NCBI RefSeq assembly: GCF_000235425.2
Contig: NZ_KI912266.1
Coordinates: 5,453,217 to 5,517,216 of the forward strand
DNA from: Pseudofrankia saprophytica
GTDB lineage: Bacteria; Actinomycetota; Actinomycetes; Frankiales; Frankiaceae
Reading direction: 5' to 3'
Length of the DNA: 64,000 bases
Shown here: one piece after another, positions 7,701 to 62,272 of the stretch
Numbering within the stretch: position 1 is the stretch's first letter
How the letters are laid out: each line of letters begins with the position of its first letter
Program-made: the position numbers and the translations under genes
The notes under the pieces: generated by a model
Told to the model about the DNA's origin: nothing
Seen by the model: only the letters and a program-made list of their open reading frames with translations
Databases searched by the model: none

Positions 7701-8291
7701 ATGAAGCTCACCGTCCACACCACCGAATCCGCTCCCGTCGACGCCGCGCCGCTGCTACGAGGCATCGCCGACGACCTCGGCATCGTCCCCCACCTGGCCG
7801 GCACGATGGCCAGCTCTCCGGCTCTGCTCGCCGGGTTCGACGGGATGCGCCGCGCCCTCGGGACGGCCCGGCTTCCGCTGCGGGAACGCGAGGTGGCCGG
7901 CCTCGCCGTGGGCGTCGCCGTCGACAACGCGTACGGCGTCGCCTTCCACTCGACGATGCTGGACCGGCTCGACATCGACGTCGCGGACATCGCCGCGATG
8001 CGCGACGGCCGCGAGCCGGCCGAGCCGCGCGACGCCGCGGTGTACGCGCTCGCCCGTTCCCTCGCTGTCGGCCGCGGCAGGGTCGATGACGCGGTCCTGG
8101 ACCGGGCAGCCGCGGCCGGCCTCGACGACGGCCTGATCCTCGACGTCGTCCTCGAAACCGCCTTCGCGGGCCTCGTCGGCCTCGTCGACAACCTCGCCGA
8201 CCGGGTCGAGCTGGACGGTTTCCTTCGCCGATGGGAGTCGGGCGACCAGCACGCCAGCTCCGCAAGTGGCTCCGGCATGGTCGAAATCTGA
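7701..8291 (+). CDS. Carboxymuconolactone decarboxylase / AhpD-like protein
   Basis: This 196-residue helical protein has the CMD pattern: LAGTMASSPALLAGFDGMRRAL, LPLREREVAGLAVGVAVDNAYGVAFHSTM, then AAAAGLDDGLILDVVLETAFAGLVGLVDNLA. In AhpD-like members a CxxC just before the helix with xxxHS provides the redox pair. Here that position reads NAYGVAFHS with no cysteines, so peroxidase-type chemistry is unlikely and the activity is unknown. The start at ATG 7701 is supported by GAGGAAAGG about 8 nt upstream. It is divergent from the XRE/MmyB regulator and probably its target. A strong hairpin terminator follows. Confidence 0.85.
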   Translation: MKLTVHTTESAPVDAAPLLRGIADDLGIVPHLAGTMASSPALLAGFDGMRRALGTARLPLREREVAGLAVGVAVDNAYGVAFHSTMLDRLDIDVADIAAMRDGREPAEPRDAAVYALARSLAVGRGRVDDAVLDRAAAAGLDDGLILDVVLETAFAGLVGLVDNLADRVELDGFLRRWESGDQHASSASGSGMVEI

Positions 8292-8353: not shown

Positions 8354-8397
8354 CCGCTGGCGGGGCGCGCCGGGTCAGTCGCGCGCCCCGCCAGCGG
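8354..8397. terminator. 17-bp perfect stem between convergent genes
   Basis: The arms 8354-8370 and 8381-8397 pair perfectly around a 10-nt loop. The site is placed between the CMD-like gene (+) and the permease (-) and can serve both strands. Confidence 0.8.
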
Positions 8398-26012: not shown

Positions 26013-26067
26013 CCTGGGCGCCCTGTCCGACCCGCACGCGGCGTGCGGGTCGGACAGGGCGCCCAGG
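26013..26067. terminator. 27-bp perfect inverted repeat, bidirectional terminator
   Basis: The arms 26013-26039 and 26041-26067 are exact reverse complements with a one-base centre, one of the longest perfect stems in the window. It lies between the converging response regulator and GlsB-like genes. Confidence 0.85.
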
Positions 26068-39147: not shown

Positions 39148-39193
39148 GCGGCACCGCCAGCACGGCCGGCGCCGGCCGTGCTGGCGGTGCCGC
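39148..39193. terminator. 23-bp perfect stem terminator
   Basis: A fully complementary stem runs from 39148 to 39193 with no free central bases (the hairpin would open to a 4-nt loop). It lies 37 nt after the stop of the binding-protein gene. Confidence 0.85.
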
Positions 39194-55636: not shown

Positions 55637-57235
55637 CTAGTGGACGACGACGGCGGCGCCGTCGCTGTTGGCTCCTCGTCGGACCAGGAGGGCCAGCGCC
55701 GCGGCGACGAGGGTGGCGACGCCAGCGACGACGAGTGACGTGTGCAGACCGGTCATGAAGGCCGAGTGGCTGCCCGCCGTCACGGCGGCCTGCACCGATT
55801 CCGGCGCACCGGTGACCCTGGGCGCGACTCCCTGGCTGATGAGCTCGTTCGAGCCGGTCAGGCGGTTCGCGACGTCGGCGGGAGCGCCGGCGCCGGTCAG
55901 TTTGTCGATCAGAACCGAGCCCACCCGGCTGCTGAGGATGGAGCCCAGCACAGCGGTGCCGATGACGCCACCCAGCTGCAGTGCCGTCGTCTGCAGGCCA
56001 CCGGCGACCCCGGCGTCGTCCACCGGCGCGTTGCCGATGATCGCCTCCGCGCTCGCGGTGATGACCAGGCCCATCCCGATGCCGAGCATGAGAAGCGACG
56101 GCCACAGCGCGCCGAAACCGGAGCCGATCTCGAGCCTGGTCAGGAGGAGCAACGCGACCCCGGACAGGACGAGCCCGGCCACCATCGGCGGCCGGGGCCC
56201 GAAGCGCTCGGTGACGTGGCCGGAGATCGGCCCCATGATCATCATTACCAGAGACAGCGGCAGGATGTGCACGCCGGTCCCGATGGGCGAGACACCCTGG
56301 ACGTTCTGCAGGAACAGCGTGACGAAGAACAGCACGCCGAACAACGCGAAGAAGTTGATGACGAGGACCGCGCTGCTCACCGAGATCGACCGGTTGGTGA
56401 ACAGCCGCATCGGCAGCAGCGGAGCAGGCACCCGGGTTTCGATCACTACGAACAGAGCCAGCACGGCCAGGCCGGCGATGACGAAGGCGAGCGTCTTCAC
56501 ATCCGTCCACCCCCAGCTGGACGCCTTGATCAGGCCAAAAATGACGCCGAACAGGCCGCCGGACAGGGTGACGATGCCGGGAATGTCATGGCGCTGGCCC
56601 ACGCTCTCGCTCTGGGACTCGCGCAGCACTGCCAGGCCCACGCCCAGCGCGAGCGCGCCCATCGGCACGTTGATGTAGAAGACCGACTCCCAGCTCACGT
56701 GCTCGACCAGCAGGCCCCCGATGATCGGCCCGCCGGCGATCGAGACGGACGACGCGCCGCTCCAGATCCCGATCGCCCGGTTCAGCTCTCTGGGCGAGAA
56801 CGCGCCGCGCAGGATGGCGAGCGTGTTCGGCAGCAGCAGGGCTCCGAACGCGCCCTGGACCGCCCGGAACGCGATGATCCCGACGATGTTGCCGACCAGG
56901 CCGATCGCCAGCGATGAGAGACCGAACCCCACCACACCGATAAGGAAGATCCGCTTACGGCCGTAGCGGTCGCCGAGGTTTCCGCCGAAGATCAGCAGCG
57001 CCGCCAGGGCCAGCAGATAGGAGTTGGTGATCCACTGCAGGTCGGTCAGCGAGGCGTTGAGGTCCTCGGCGATCCGCGGGTTCGCGATCGACACGACGGT
57101 CCCGTCCAGGCCGACCATGATGACGCCGAGGGCAACGCTCACCAGGGCCCACCAGGGATTACCCCGCCGGCCAGTCGCGCCCGCCACCGAGGCGGAGCCC
57201 GTCCGATGATCATCGGCGACGACGTGCTGTGACAT
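55637..57235 (-). CDS. MFS drug exporter, DHA2 (EmrB/QacA) family
   Basis: This 532-residue transporter with 14 hydrophobic helices has the DHA2 signatures: MVGLDGTVVSIANPRIAEDLNASLTDLQWITNSYLLALAALLIFGGNLGDRYGRKRIFLIGVV (motifs D1 and A), GAFGALLLPNTLAILRGAF, and GAASSVSIAGGPIIGGLLVEHVSWESVFYINVPMG (motif C). This is a proton-driven multidrug or metabolite exporter. The start is ATG 57235 with AAGGGA upstream. It is divergent from a TetR regulator with three small dyads between, the usual arrangement for inducible efflux. Confidence 0.94.
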   Translation of the reverse strand: MSQHVVADDHRTGSASVAGATGRRGNPWWALVSVALGVIMVGLDGTVVSIANPRIAEDLNASLTDLQWITNSYLLALAALLIFGGNLGDRYGRKRIFLIGVVGFGLSSLAIGLVGNIVGIIAFRAVQGAFGALLLPNTLAILRGAFSPRELNRAIGIWSGASSVSIAGGPIIGGLLVEHVSWESVFYINVPMGALALGVGLAVLRESQSESVGQRHDIPGIVTLSGGLFGVIFGLIKASSWGWTDVKTLAFVIAGLAVLALFVVIETRVPAPLLPMRLFTNRSISVSSAVLVINFFALFGVLFFVTLFLQNVQGVSPIGTGVHILPLSLVMMIMGPISGHVTERFGPRPPMVAGLVLSGVALLLLTRLEIGSGFGALWPSLLMLGIGMGLVITASAEAIIGNAPVDDAGVAGGLQTTALQLGGVIGTAVLGSILSSRVGSVLIDKLTGAGAPADVANRLTGSNELISQGVAPRVTGAPESVQAAVTAGSHSAFMTGLHTSLVVAGVATLVAAALALLVRRGANSDGAAVVVH

Positions 57236-57285
57236 GGCGCCATCCCTTCGTCGAGCACGCGGCGGTCGTCGGAAGCGATACAAGT

Positions 57286-57335
57286 GGAGGAGATCTTCCG
57301 GATAACCCTAGCAGGGTAAACGGAGGATCGCCTCC
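57286..57335. promoter_or_regulatory. Three dyads between DHA2 exporter and TetR
   Basis: GGAGG-N4-CTTCC (57286-57299), ACCCT-AGC-AGGGT (57305-57317) and GGAGG-N4-CCTCC (57322-57335) stand in a row at nearly regular spacing. The outer two share half-sites, so the TetR product may bind both as a pair with the middle dyad as core promoter. Confidence 0.6.
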
Positions 57336-57358
57336 AGATAGGAAGGTAGGCTCGTCAC

Positions 57359-58093
57359 ATGGACGGTCCGCGACTCGGCGGGAACGAGGTGATGGCCGCC
57401 GGGTCGACCAGGCGGTCAGGCCCCGCGCTGCGGGTCGACGCCGAGCGCAACCGCGAGCGCATTCTGCGGGCCGCACGGGAGGTGTTCTCCGAGCGCGGCA
57501 TCGAGGTCGGCCTGGAGGAGATCGCGCGGCGCGCCGGGGTCGGCATCGCCACGCTCTACCGCCGGTTCCCGACCAGGGCCGACCTGCTCGAGGCGAGCAT
57601 CGAGGAGAACATCCGCGACTACCGGGCCGCCGTCGGCCGGGCGTTGGAGAACCCCATCCCCTGGGCGGGCTTCCGAGAGCTCATCGAGTACCTCTGCGGC
57701 GCGCAGGCGGCGGACGCGGGCCTGCGTGACCTGATCACCCTGCGGTTTCCCTCGTCCAGCGCGGTCGAGGAGCTCAAGGCGGAAGCACACGCGGAGCTGG
57801 AGGAGCTCGTCGCCCGGGCCCAGCGGAACGGCTCCCTGCGGCCCGACTTCGTCGCCGCCGACATCGGCCTCCTGCTGCTCGCCAACGCCGGACTGGCCGC
57901 CGCGACCCACGAGGCCGCGCCCGACGCCTGGCGCCGCTTCACCGCCTACCTCCTCGACGCCTTCCGGGCCGAGGGATCGACGCGGACCGATCCGATACCG
58001 GCCGCGCCCACCGCGGACCAGATCGAACGTTCCGTGCAGAGCATGGTCACCACGGTCCACCGAGGCCGCCCCCCGGTCCATCAGGATCTGTAG
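57359..58093 (+). CDS. TetR-family transcriptional regulator
   Basis: This 244-residue protein has an HTH: RNRERILRAAREVFSERGIEVGLEEIARRAGVGIATLYRRFPTRADLLEA. The C-terminal domain is longer than average with a Thr/Pro tail. It is divergent from the DHA2 exporter and is its probable repressor. ATG 57359 and a later ATG at 57392 are both possible starts; similarity begins near residue 25. Confidence 0.93.
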   Translation: MDGPRLGGNEVMAAGSTRRSGPALRVDAERNRERILRAAREVFSERGIEVGLEEIARRAGVGIATLYRRFPTRADLLEASIEENIRDYRAAVGRALENPIPWAGFRELIEYLCGAQAADAGLRDLITLRFPSSSAVEELKAEAHAELEELVARAQRNGSLRPDFVAADIGLLLLANAGLAAATHEAAPDAWRRFTAYLLDAFRAEGSTRTDPIPAAPTADQIERSVQSMVTTVHRGRPPVHQDL

Positions 58094-58257
58094 ACCGGCG
58101 ACCGCGACGCCCGTTCCCTCGATTCGGAAGGTCGGTTCGGAAGGCCGACGTCACAGGCCGCTTCAGGACACGTCCGAGCTCCGGTCACGGCCCGGGCGAG
58201 GCGTGGCTGCCGCCGGCCGGGTGGGTCGGCGTGCCGAGGCTCTGGCCTTTCTGACGA

Positions 58258-59103
58258 CTACCCGCGCTGATCGGGCAGGCCACGCCGAAGGGCGGTCGTC
58301 GCCAGGGTGGTGTAGCGCATCGTGAAGTAGCCGCCCAGGGAGTCGATGGCGTCCCCGACCGCGGCCAGTATCTCGGCCAGCTGGTCGGAGCGGAGCTGGG
58401 TGAGGCCGCCGGTGGTGGGGAGCAGGGCCAGCCACTGGTCGCGCGTGTAGGACTGCTCCCAGTCGAATCGCCATTGTTCCGGGTCGTCGAACCGTTCGGT
58501 CTCGCGGATCCTGTCGGCGATCATCGCGTACCCCGCCTGGTATATCTCCAAGGGGCGTCGAGCCGGCTGACCACGCAGCGGCGAATCGGGCGCCACCCGC
58601 CGGTAGGCGGCCGCGAACGGCTCGGCCACCTCGGCTGGCGGCTCGAACACGTGCCCGAAGATCGCCAGTCGCCCGTCCGGACGCAGCACCCGGGCCGCCT
58701 TTTCGGCACCGGTGACCGGATCCACCCAGTGCCACGACTGGGCGGCAACCACCGCGTCGAACGTCCGGCCCGCCGGCTGCCACGCCTCCAGGGTCGCGAC
58801 CTCGACCCGCACACCGCGGGATCGCGCGAAGTCGGCCATCCTCGCGTCCGGCTCGACGCCAAGCACGACGCAGCCGGCGGCCTTGAACTGCCGAGCCGCG
58901 ATGCCGGTCCCGCAGCCGACGTCGAGCACGTCACGCCCCGGGCTCCCCGCGACGATCCGCGCCACCAGCGCATCGGGGTAGCCGGGCCTGGCCTGGTCAT
59001 AGCGTCGCGCGTTCGTGCCGAACGACTCGGCCATCCGCCGGGCCTTGTGCAGCTCCGCTGGCGGTTCTCCCGTCTCACGCGGTTCTCGCGGCAAAGTGGG
59101 CAT
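58258..59103 (-). CDS. Class I SAM-dependent methyltransferase
   Basis: This 281-residue protein has SFGTNARRYDQARPGYPDALVARIV, motif I VLDVGCGTGIAARQF, VEPDARMADFARSRG, and AQSWHWVDPVTGAEKAARVLRPDGRLAIFGH, the pattern of the UbiE/Methyltransferase_11 group closest to trans-aconitate/biotin-type methyltransferases. The substrate is not evident. The start codon lies inside the left arm of a 16-bp palindrome, so expression is probably tightly controlled by the divergent TetR protein. Confidence 0.92.
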   Translation of the reverse strand: MPTLPREPRETGEPPAELHKARRMAESFGTNARRYDQARPGYPDALVARIVAGSPGRDVLDVGCGTGIAARQFKAAGCVVLGVEPDARMADFARSRGVRVEVATLEAWQPAGRTFDAVVAAQSWHWVDPVTGAEKAARVLRPDGRLAIFGHVFEPPAEVAEPFAAAYRRVAPDSPLRGQPARRPLEIYQAGYAMIADRIRETERFDDPEQWRFDWEQSYTRDQWLALLPTTGGLTQLRSDQLAEILAAVGDAIDSLGGYFTMRYTTLATTALRRGLPDQRG

Positions 59104-59132
59104 GCGCCCACTTTAATGGGCGCATGCCCACT
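59095..59132. promoter_or_regulatory. 16-bp-arm palindrome overlapping methyltransferase start
   Basis: The arms 59095-59110 and 59117-59132 are exact reverse complements around CTTTAA. Each half is itself a dyad (TGGGC-N4-GCCCA). The site includes the methyltransferase ATG (59101-59103) and lies 44 nt before the TetR GTG. Two adjacent TetR operators, or one high-affinity site, are likely. Confidence 0.85.
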
Positions 59133-59175
59133 GGGCTACGGAGGCCACCGGGCGGATCGATGGGAGGATCTGTGC

Positions 59176-59778
59176 GTGCCGACTGGGGTGCATCTTCGCG
59201 ACGCGCGGCAGCAGCTGTTCGACGCCGCCGAACGCGTACTGCTGCGGGCCGGGCCGCATGGCCTGACCAGCCGGGCCGTCACCGACGAGGCGGGCTGCGC
59301 CAAGGGCGTCCTGCACCGGCACTTCACCGACTTCGACGCCTTCCTCACCGAACTCGTGCTCGATCGGGCCGCGCAGCTCGAGACACGGGCCAGCGAGCTG
59401 CGCGAGTCCGCCGGCGCCGGCACGGTGGCCGACAACCTCACCAGCGCGCTGACCACGCTGTTCGGGCCGGTTCCGGTGGCGATCATCCCGCTCGTCACCT
59501 TCCGGGACGAGCTACGCGCTCGGCTGCGGCAAGCCCGGCCGGGAGGCGGCATCACGATCCTCGCCCAGGCCACGGCCGCGATCTCCGCCTACCTGGCCGA
59601 CGAGCGTGATCTCGGCCGTATCGCCGCCGATGCCGACATTGACTCGCTCACCCTCTCCCTGGTCGGTGGCGGGCATCTGCTGTTCGCGGACCGCGACCTG
59701 GGTGCGCCGGCCCCGGCAATCGTCAACAAGCTGGTGACAACGGTGCTCGCCGACGTCGTGCAACGGCGGCCACGCTGA
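59176..59778 (+). CDS. TetR-family transcriptional regulator
   Basis: This 200-residue protein has the TetR HTH: ARQQLFDAAERVLLRAGPHGLTSRAVTDEAGCAKGVLHRHFTDFDAFLTEL. The ligand domain contains a Gly-rich stretch (RQARPGGGITILAQATAAIS). The GTG start at 59176 is supported by GGAGG 9 nt upstream. It is divergent from a methyltransferase gene across the long palindrome at 59095-59132, which it probably binds. Confidence 0.93.
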   Translation: MPTGVHLRDARQQLFDAAERVLLRAGPHGLTSRAVTDEAGCAKGVLHRHFTDFDAFLTELVLDRAAQLETRASELRESAGAGTVADNLTSALTTLFGPVPVAIIPLVTFRDELRARLRQARPGGGITILAQATAAISAYLADERDLGRIAADADIDSLTLSLVGGGHLLFADRDLGAPAPAIVNKLVTTVLADVVQRRPR

Positions 59779-59848
59779 CGGCCGAGAATGTCGGAGGCTT
59801 GCCAGGTAAATGTCAGGATTCTTGTCTGGTCAGTGCCCGGTCCGTACC

Positions 59849-60583
59849 ATGAGCCGCGTGGCCAGTGAATCCGAACGCGTCAGCCGACTGCTCGACGCAC
59901 AGACTAAGGCGTCCGAGCTTCTTCGCGAGGTCGAACGTCGTGGCCTCATTTCCGCGGGCCGGAGCGAGCAACGTGTCAGTAACGACATCCGCGACCTCGC
60001 CACGCAGCTGTTCGGCGTGCGCCAGCACTGGCACAAACGCATCGTCCGGGCGGGTCCGAACACCCTCCAGCCATACGACGAGAATCCTCCCGACCGGGTG
60101 ATCGGCGATGACGACATCGTGTTCTGCGATTTCGGCCCCGTTTTCGACGGATGGGAGGGCGACTACGGGCGGACCTTCGTCCTGGGCGACGACCCGGTCA
60201 AACATCGCCTGCGTAACGACCTGTCACTGGTGTTCGAGGCCGGGCGCCGCCACTTCGAGGATCACCCGGACATCACCGGGGAGCAGCTGTTCGCCGCGGT
60301 CGAGAAGCTCGCGGCCGACGCCGGCTGGGAATACGGGAGCCCACTCGCCGGCCACCTCGTGGGCGAGTTCCCGCACGACCGTATCCCCGGCAACCGCGTC
60401 GAGTACTACATCACGCCGGGAAGCCAGCACCCGATGCGCCGGACGGACTCCGCCGGGCGGCCGTGCCACTGGATCCTCGAGATCCACCTCGTCGACCGGG
60501 AGCGGGGGTTCGGCGGGTTCTACGAGACCCTGCTCGACCTCGGCCACACCGCTTCGCCCGGCCTCACCGACGCGATTCGATAA
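59849..60583 (+). CDS. M24-family metallopeptidase
   Basis: This 244-residue pita-bread fold protein has IVFCDFGPVFDGWEGDYGRTFVLGDDP with two metal-binding Asp, GHLVGEFPHDRIPG with the His, and ILEIHLVDRERGFGGFYETLLDLG with the Glu ligands. It lacks the long N-terminal domain of Xaa-Pro dipeptidases, so it is a compact aminopeptidase or methionine-aminopeptidase-like enzyme. Start may be ATG 59849 or GTG 59858; the open frame reaches 59810. Stand-alone gene, specificity unknown. Confidence 0.88.
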   Translation: MSRVASESERVSRLLDAQTKASELLREVERRGLISAGRSEQRVSNDIRDLATQLFGVRQHWHKRIVRAGPNTLQPYDENPPDRVIGDDDIVFCDFGPVFDGWEGDYGRTFVLGDDPVKHRLRNDLSLVFEAGRRHFEDHPDITGEQLFAAVEKLAADAGWEYGSPLAGHLVGEFPHDRIPGNRVEYYITPGSQHPMRRTDSAGRPCHWILEIHLVDRERGFGGFYETLLDLGHTASPGLTDAIR

Positions 60584-60658
60584 GCCGACGCCATTCGGCA
60601 AGCCGGCGCGATCCGATCCCGGCGACGTCCTGTCATCTCCCGGCCAGGCGGTCGTCGC

Positions 60659-61840
60659 TCAGCCCGGCGCTCCCGTGGTCGCGTTTCCCGCCGTGTAGGA
60701 ATGAGCGCCGACGCCGGCGAGCGCGCCGCCCTGGACTATCAGGTACTCGTCGCGGATCGGCCGGTTCTCGAGCCAGCATTCGAGGATCTCGCGGGTGCCG
60801 GCGGCGTAGCGGGCCTGGGCGGACAGGGACGAGCCGGAGATGTGCGGTGTCATCCCGTGATGAGGCATCGTCCGCCACGGATGATCGGCGGCCGGCGGCT
60901 GGGGGAACCACACGTCGCCGGCGTAGCCCGCGAGTTGGCCGCTTTCCAGAGCCCGCACCACCGCGTCCCGGTCGCAGATCTTGGCACGGGCGGTGTTGAT
61001 CAGATAGGCGCCACGCTTCATCGTGGCGATGAGCGCGTCGTCGAACAGACCCTCCGTCTCCGGGTGCAGCGGCGCGTTGATGGTGACGACGTCGCAGACC
61101 GGCACCAGGTCCCGCGTGGTCGGATGGAAGGTGAGCCCGAGGTCCCGCTCGACGTCCGTCGGCAGCCGGTGCCGGTCGGTGTAGTGCAGCTTCACGCCGA
61201 AGGGCGCCAGCCGGCGCAGCACGCCCAGCCCGATCCGGCCGGCGGCGACCGTCCCGACAGCCATGCCCTCCAGGTCGTAGGAGCGTTCCACGCAGTCGGC
61301 GATGTTCCATCCGCCGGACCGCACCCACTGGTGGGACGGCAGGTAGTTCCGCACCAGCGAGAGAATCATCATCACCACGTGCTCGGCGACGCTGACGCTG
61401 TTGCAGTAGGTGACCTCGGCGACGGTGATTCCGTGCGCGATAGCCGCGTCCAGGTCCACGTGGTCGGAGCCGATCCCGGCGGTGATCGCGAGTTTCAGCT
61501 TCGGCGCCTTCGCGATCCGCTCGGCGGTCAGGTACGCCGGCCAGAAGGGCTGGGAAATCACGACATCGGTGTCAGGTAGCTCGCGGTCAAAGACGGACTC
61601 CGCGCCGTCCTTGTCCGAGGTGACGACCAGTGAATGCCCGCCGCTTTCCAGGAAGCCACGCAGGCCGAGCTCTCCCGACACACTTCCCAGCAGCGTCCCC
61701 GGGGTGAAGTCGACCGCCCGCGGCGTGGGTAGCCGCTGCCCGTCGGGATAGGCTTCGAGAACCGGAAGGTCCGGCCGGGCGTACAAGCTGGGATATCCAC
61801 CCACCGGATCGTCATAAAGAACGCAAAGAACCTTCACCAT
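60659..61840 (-). CDS. fdh: NAD-dependent formate dehydrogenase
   Basis: This enzyme oxidises formate to CO2 with NAD+. The 393-residue protein has VKVLCVLYDDPVGGYPSLYARPDLPVLEAYPDGQ at the start, TAGIGSDHVDLDAAI (catalytic loop), the NAD fold GMAVGTVAAGRIGLGVLRRLAPF, LINTARAKICDRDAVV, and MTPHISGSSLSAQARYAAGTREIL with the catalytic His. All match the metal-independent FDH of the D-2-hydroxyacid dehydrogenase superfamily. GAGGGGATGTC precedes ATG 61840. In a heterotroph it may detoxify formate from one-carbon metabolism or feed NADH. Confidence 0.95.
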   Translation of the reverse strand: MVKVLCVLYDDPVGGYPSLYARPDLPVLEAYPDGQRLPTPRAVDFTPGTLLGSVSGELGLRGFLESGGHSLVVTSDKDGAESVFDRELPDTDVVISQPFWPAYLTAERIAKAPKLKLAITAGIGSDHVDLDAAIAHGITVAEVTYCNSVSVAEHVVMMILSLVRNYLPSHQWVRSGGWNIADCVERSYDLEGMAVGTVAAGRIGLGVLRRLAPFGVKLHYTDRHRLPTDVERDLGLTFHPTTRDLVPVCDVVTINAPLHPETEGLFDDALIATMKRGAYLINTARAKICDRDAVVRALESGQLAGYAGDVWFPQPPAADHPWRTMPHHGMTPHISGSSLSAQARYAAGTREILECWLENRPIRDEYLIVQGGALAGVGAHSYTAGNATTGAPG

Positions 61841-62272
61841 GACATCCCCTCGCCTGGGCTCGCGGCAGGACGCCATCATCGGTTCCCCGCCACGGCACAG
61901 TCAAAGTGATGTCTTATATCGCGATGTAATTGACAGGCATCGCGCGGGAGGACGCTCAGCCGGTGGACGGGTGCTGAAGGCGCTTCCTGACCCGCACCAT
62001 CCCGTCGACGTCCGCCAGCGTCACCCCGGCGCCGACCACTCCCCACACGTCGACGGGACCCGCCGCCGGCGACGCCTCAGCCGGCTCAGCCGGCTCAGCG
62101 GGCTCAGCGCCGACGAAGGCCGGTGGGGCGGCGCCCGCGACGTCGCGCTCCGCGGTGCCCGGGTAGAGAGTGAACGTGTACTTTCCCCGTGGGAAGGTGG
62201 CCGGTGGAGTCCGTGCTCAGCGGGGAGGTCGGCTCCGGTCTACGGCGCGCGCACACGCGAGAGAGGTCGTGC
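61841..62272. other. 432-bp divergent region between fdh and SnoaL gene
   Basis: An AT-rich stretch near 61911-61932 with an ATCGCGAT palindrome (61918-61925) is the best promoter candidate. Four 9-bp repeats lie at 62076-62111. No gene, RNA or terminator is otherwise visible. Confidence 0.5.
62076..62111. repeat. Four 9-bp tandem repeats (CTCAGCCGG)
   Basis: Units begin at 62076, 62085, 62094 and 62103; the first two are identical and the others differ at one to three positions. Located in the fdh/SnoaL intergenic region. Confidence 0.6.

Follow-up and report, generated by a model that had tools for sequence, protein, structure and literature searches.

Paired operator sites predicted for a TetR-family repressor include the start codon of a probably leaderless methyltransferase gene in Pseudofrankia saprophytica

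Several described systems resemble a divergently arranged TetR-family gene and methyltransferase gene of Pseudofrankia saprophytica. According to the sections of PMC3511530 concerned with the '200 bp' rule, a TetR-family regulator encoded divergently from an enzyme is expected to repress its neighbour, and the pair analyzed here has the same layout with 72 bp between the genes. That text nowhere mentions a methyltransferase, and those sections do not describe a start codon inside an operator. The same source, in its treatment of TetR/tetA, presents tandem operators, where two palindromic operators are situated between divergent genes, as they are here. Unlike in TetR/tetA, the operator centres in the present arrangement are 20-21 bp apart, and one of the operators contains a start codon. 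A second close system is acuR-acuI-dddL of Rhodobacter sphaeroides, in which the TetR-family protein AcuR has an inverted-repeat operator over the promoter of a leaderless mRNA starting with AUG (PMC3017554, sections on this operon). In contrast to the present locus, the regulator itself is the first leaderless gene there, and all genes form one operon. The AcuR operator is a single inverted repeat (TAATAGAC/n6/GTCTATTA) over the promoter, and those sections mention no start codon within it. They also report that tetR of Tn1721 is leaderless, whereas here the enzyme gene, not the repressor gene, is predicted to be leaderless. The 28-bp operator of QacR (PMC4482099, section on this operator) is likewise a long palindrome for more than one dimer, but the present palindrome holds two separate, non-overlapping 18-bp dyads. 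The arrangement is a variant of the known divergent TetR-target pair, for which the AcuR leaderless operon and the tandem tet operators are the closest of these counterparts. Among the matches listed from the open-access literature, no paper on a TetR gene with a divergent methyltransferase and operator was found, and none contained a 14- or 16-mer of the palindrome.

The window, which is the whole stretch of 64,000 nucleotides analyzed, contains the following features at this locus:

58258-59103, minus strand: class I SAM-dependent methyltransferase (Methyltransf_11/25) of 281 aa; model m12626d913845, mean pLDDT 91.2
59095-59132: inverted repeat with arms 59095-59110 and 59117-59132 (16 nt, 100% complementary) and a 6-nt centre
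59095-59112: methyltransferase-proximal putative operator, AGTGGGC-ATGC-GCCCACT; core 59097-59110, outer dyad reaching 59093-59114
59101-59103, minus strand: methyltransferase ATG inside the proximal operator (left arm); predicted transcription start of a putatively leaderless mRNA
59110-59115, minus strand: predicted -10 hexamer TAAAGT between the operators and 6 nt ahead of the ATG; its final T also belongs to the proximal operator
59115-59132: distal (TetR-side) putative operator, AATGGGC-GCAT-GCCCACT; core 59117-59130 conserved in relatives
59133-59138, minus strand: predicted, degenerate -35 slot TAGCCC just upstream of the distal operator
59162-59168, plus strand: Shine-Dalgarno-like GGGAGGA of the TetR gene, by direct reading
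59176-59778, plus strand: TetR-family regulator (PF00440) of 200 aa with a GTG start; model m7c451695f705, mean pLDDT 90.9

The regulator matched PF00440 with an E-value of 7.1e-08 (32.5 bits against a cut-off of 24). Its model is all-helical, and the top Foldseek match is the TetR-family protein FadR (3whc_A, TM 0.65). The N-terminal TetR_N helix-turn-helix (HTH) and the all-helical body that characterize the TetR family are both present. Across 53 relatives, the HTH is 66-96% identical, as against 33-86% for the C-terminal part. The divergent starts at 59103 and 59176 lie well within the 200 bp that marks a divergent TetR-target pair. Fold matches of the methyltransferase include HvrF (pantaphos) and trans-aconitate methyltransferases, which serve as a lead only; the sequence and fold searches gave only general TetR and class I methyltransferase matches, none of which pointed to a substrate. 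The first 20 residues of the methyltransferase model have low confidence (block means 52 and 63). In the neighbourhood, a DHA2-type MFS efflux pump is divergent from another TetR-family gene (55637-57283 and 57359-58093, 75 bp apart by the listed open reading frames), forming a second divergent TetR-target pair that adjoins the TetR-methyltransferase pair. The top NCBIfam match of this pump is the TcmA model, below its cut-off, while the EmrB subfamily is above its cut-off. An NAD-dependent formate dehydrogenase is encoded at 60659-61879 (NF005750, 698 bits, cut-off 329).

The first-pass annotation described a very strong palindrome with 16-bp perfect arms and six central bases, each half of which is itself a dyad and which includes the methyltransferase ATG. 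This geometry was borne out in every part. The left half has perfect 9-bp arms at 59093-59101 and 59106-59114 with 4 nt between them, and the right half reads TGGGC-GCAT-GCCCA at 59117-59130. The palindrome consists of two operators of the form AGTGGGC-NNNN-GCCCACT with a centre-to-centre distance of 20 bp. The 16-nt arm is above chance, because the longest perfect arms in 20 first-order simulations of the 64-kb window (loop up to 12) were only 10 to 14 nt. The palindrome is strong by this measure, but it is not the strongest in the window, where three inverted repeats have longer arms: 26013-26067 (27 nt), 39148-39193 (23), and 8354-8397 (17). These three longer repeats are possibly terminators.

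The 9.98-Mb genome has 27 occurrences of the core TGGGCNNNNGCCCA, and the sole mismatch-free match of the 18-mer RGTGGGCNNNNGCCCAYT is the palindrome locus; with one mismatch, further matches of the 18-mer are located elsewhere in the genome. Within the window, single cores with two or fewer mismatches show no enrichment, with 14 observed against 12.9 expected. There was also no sign of a wider regulon in this genome, since the 18-mer pattern with up to two mismatches was rarer than its backward control (188/189 versus 512/531).

To extend the comparison to other genomes, the pattern TGGGCNNNNGCCCA-N4-8-TGGGCNNNNGCCCA was scanned in genome contigs, and at least 119 stretches matched. Among the 119 listed stretches, TetR or a methyltransferase adjoins the pair in 111 and neither does in 8. 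TetR and a methyltransferase are both beside the pair in 104; TetR with an orthologous methyltransferase within 400 bp accounts for 83 stretches and TetR with a different methyltransferase for 21. The orthologous methyltransferase occurs without a TetR match there in 5 stretches, and TetR occurs alone in 2. The eight stretches with neither gene come from a Mesorhizobium (L065), Kiloniellales (L085 and L109), a cyanobacterium (L086), a myxococcote (L124), a Treponema (L145), and actinobacteria (L061 and L153); the first six of these matches are probably due to chance. A check for the palindrome at other loci in relatives had been proposed, with absence of conservation named as one half of the case against the site, and it found the arms conserved. 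The overall symmetry of the palindrome is less well kept in relatives than the two operators themselves.

Some further variants were noted. In L153 (Actinomadura litoris), an operator pair at 7886-7919 lies about 7 kb from a TetR gene of the same family and overlaps the start of an open reading frame with a secreted-protein-like N-terminus, possibly another target. In L134 (Nocardia seriolae), the pair adjoins a 41% identical TetR, and the nearest 400 bp contain no methyltransferase match. Rows of three or more operators occur in L058, L088, L142, L187, L188, and genome G241; in L187 and L188, the third operator is 22 bp from the second, centre to centre. Two stretches from viral contigs match the pattern.

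The tie between the operators and TetR was examined in 393 genomes of the class, with the own genome included. A TetR match was defined by E<=1e-30, and such matches take in the window TetR subfamily as well as a sister subfamily at 42-48% identity. A TetR match was present in 45 of 46 genomes with the pair but in 12 of 347 genomes without it (Fisher p 9e-47, relatedness ignored). In total, 57 of the 393 genomes have a TetR match of the window type or the sister type, and 12 of these 57 lack an exact pair. As many as 52 of 53 operator places are located within 300 bp upstream of a TetR match, the exception being in G001. The backward-read control pattern matched in 1 of the 393 genomes (G016).

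The converse approach used loci picked by the TetR protein and not by the operator. This TetR-found set comprised the 36 best-scoring loci (L012-L027 and L170-L189), and the distant or partial TetR matches L028-L040 were left out; TetR matches with no locus of their own are covered only by the pattern comparison of the 393 genomes. Both exact cores were present in 30 of the 36 loci. In the remaining six, the distal operator of L018 has a spacer of 3 nt; in L170, L172, and L173, the half with ATGCCCACT is kept, while the other half-site of that operator is altered; L185 has a single operator and no methyltransferase match; and L027 has no operators, a TetR match in two pieces, and a retained methyltransferase match. 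L027 may be a decayed copy or reflect an error in the draft. Counted over 31 loci (the 30 exact ones and L018), the operator centres are 20 bp apart in 21 and 21 bp apart in 10. By comparison, two conserved palindromic operators recur beside homologous regulators. The co-occurrence and the conserved dyads support the earlier suggestion that two repressor dimers would bind side by side at sites belonging to the adjacent TetR gene.

ATG CCC ACT, with which the window methyltransferase gene opens, makes up half of the proximal operator. The conservation of this start was followed in 103 rows with both exact cores; L018 and L027, which have no exact pair, were left out. Removal of the window itself (L011), two duplicates (L090 and L125), and one incomplete row (L132) left 99 distinct relatives. 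All of these rows were chosen for both exact cores, and they are interrelated. The choice of exact cores fixes the final G of the start codon, the CCC codon, and the A that follows CCC, so the start-codon test rests on the two bases before the G. At this place, the proximal operator has 92 ATG, 7 GTG, and 0 TTG codons in the 99 relatives, as against 7 ATG, 29 GTG, and 11 TTG in the distal operator read on the same strand. The proximal codon is ATG in 25 and GTG in 6 of the 31 TetR-found loci. In 102 of 103 rows, this codon shares the reading frame of the methyltransferase match, L020 being the exception. The methyltransferase motif was reached in frame in 100 of 112 distinct loci by script and in 11 more by eye, L020 again excepted. 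In the 100 scripted loci, the codon lies 8-44 codons from the motif with no intervening stop. Of the 67 genes with ACN as codon 3, 60 have ACT, whereas only 24 of 1163 ACN codons are ACT from codon 11 on (73 genes); the C and T of this ACT lie outside the search pattern. A DNA constraint appears likelier than a protein constraint as the origin of this bias, because the protein start is predicted with low confidence. In mycobacteria, a 5' ATG or GTG suffices for translation, while TTG and CTG are poor (PMC4633059, sections on this rule), and the proximal codons of the 99 relatives follow this preference for ATG or GTG over TTG and CTG. Comparison of relatives thus places a conserved start codon inside the operator.

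Leaderless actinobacterial genes have a -10 motif, TANNNT, about 6-7 nt ahead of the start codon. TAAAGT occupies this position in the window, and the slot (the hexamer whose last base is the first T of the proximal operator) reads TANNNT in 75 of 99 relatives, against 8 of 99 for the slot mirrored towards tetR. Position 2 of the -10 is A in 96 relatives against 21 at the mirrored slot. TTG fills the -35 slot in 59 of the 99 relatives; the mirrored slot, which has TTG in 0 of 99, falls in coding sequence and is no neutral control. With spacers of 16-19 nt allowed, 68 of 99 relatives have a -35 hexamer that agrees with TTGACA at 4 or 5 positions. The window slot matches TTGACA at 3 of 6 positions, and a promoter scan of the window called no sigma-70-type site. 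These comparisons give the -10 and -35 signals a direction, which is towards the methyltransferase; a tetR promoter mirroring it was sought in the 99 relatives and not seen. As the ATG is situated 6 nt past the -10, the ATG itself or an adjacent base is the most likely start of methyltransferase transcription, and the mRNA is probably leaderless. In S. coelicolor, 21% of primary starts are leaderless and the -10 motif is TANNNT (PMC4895711, part on transcription starts). In two Kutzneria loci (L089 and L149), inspection by eye puts the tetR start about 20 bp from the operator with TANNNT shortly before it, and tetR may be leaderless there.

In the sister TetR subfamily, comparable twin operators adjoin the gene of a different methyltransferase, and that gene has a Shine-Dalgarno-like leader. 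Three of its regulators (L047, L071, and L134) are 41-44% identical overall to the window TetR and 66-68% identical in the HTH. In the 21 listed loci with the other methyltransferase, the gap between the operators is 7 nt in 19 and 8 nt in 2, and it reads TACTGTT in 12 (either strand) and TACTATT in 4; AACAGTA in L106 is an opposite-strand reading. In the contexts inspected by eye, the first operator usually has a TTG-led hexamer ahead of it, and the genes start about 30-55 nt past the second operator, behind a GGAGG-like site. Two of the sister methyltransferases fall under Methyltransf_25/11 in Pfam. This group shows no excess of start-like spacers (7 to 9 of the 21 loci, depending on the reading), which serves as an internal control for the start codon in the window group.

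Other explanations for the palindrome were weighed. The first-pass annotation had suggested start-codon control through an RNA hairpin, in which the palindrome would be transcribed and fold over the methyltransferase start codon, limiting translation. The proposed folding check did yield a stable structure for the 111-nt minus-strand RNA (-62.4 kcal/mol against a shuffled mean of -41.9, z -5.5), but every palindrome folds in this way. The two 4-nt spacers can pair completely in 20 of the 99 relatives; shuffling gave a mean of 12.9, and 3 in 1000 shuffles reached the observed count (p 0.003, relatedness ignored). There may be a weak tendency to inter-spacer pairing, yet this pairing is incomplete in 79 of 99. 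The hairpin reading is weakened because the -10 and -35 signals put the transcription start at or near the ATG and make the upstream arm promoter DNA, which a leaderless mRNA would leave untranscribed. The spacing of 20 or 21 bp in 31 of 31 two-operator TetR-found loci fits a DNA-bound protein, although the intervening promoter may also fix it, and Rfam gave no gathering-threshold match in 57000-61000. A hairpin may form in the tetR mRNA, while for the methyltransferase mRNA this kind of control is unsupported and appears quite improbable. Equally doubtful is a later in-frame ATG with its own leader as the site of translation initiation, which would leave the codon in the operator idle and the operators acting on transcription alone. 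The window protein has such an ATG before the AESFG motif, the first 20 residues are modelled with low confidence, and the invariance of M1 and P2 in the 45-sequence alignment arises partly by construction, as the loci were found by a GCCCA-bearing pattern and taken from that start. However, this later Met lies outside the invariant or nearly invariant columns, and the two non-fixed bases still give ATG or GTG in all 99 relatives and all 31 TetR-found loci. In addition, the frame is kept and free of stops in the 100 scripted loci although the linkers differ in length, and TTG is absent from the proximal operator but present in 11 of 99 distal ones.

It could also be proposed that another regulator binds these sites and that TetR is a mere neighbour. 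This is very improbable, as operator and TetR co-occur both by genome and by place, and the sister group of TetRs has the core too, mostly beside a different methyltransferase. A chance palindrome or an intrinsic terminator is scarcely credible. The other long inverted repeats of the window speak in its favour, but this palindrome sits between divergent starts, no terminator-like site was called in 58900-59400, and the pair recurs beside TetR or a methyltransferase in nearly all of the listed stretches.

The palindrome is most likely a set of twin landing sites for the neighbouring TetR repressor that has been kept in many related bacteria. On the basis of sequence comparison, the full model can be held with considerable confidence: two adjacent 18-bp TetR operators would overlie the promoter of a leaderless methyltransferase gene, and two dimers would block polymerase until a ligand releases them. 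The divergently encoded TetR would place one dimer on each 18-bp operator, side by side and about two helical turns apart. The promoter would lie on the operators, with its -35 slot upstream of the distal one, TAAAGT between them, and the transcription start on or beside the ATG in the proximal one. The bound repressor should cover promoter and start codon together, so that RNA polymerase would be blocked and the methyltransferase repressed. The same binding would probably repress tetR too, and a ligand would free TetR from the operators; we infer these steps, from TetR binding to ligand release, from the conserved arrangement. The ligand may be a molecule that is removed by methylation, because the core recurs with the sister TetR, whose neighbour is a different methyltransferase gene with a leader.

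A broader claim is somewhat less certain but still rather likely. The locus would represent a conserved actinobacterial arrangement in which one element is both the operator and the place where translation of the leaderless target begins. The repressor would occupy transcription start and start codon alike, and operator DNA would set the first three codons (Met-Pro-Thr, with ACT, which is rare elsewhere in these genes). The analysis assigns a predicted regulator, operator, promoter, and start codon to a TetR-methyltransferase pair that had not been characterised. The pair offers a natural sensor, the ligand of which could be sought among methyltransferase substrates. These findings suggest that an operator may dictate the first codons of the gene under its control.
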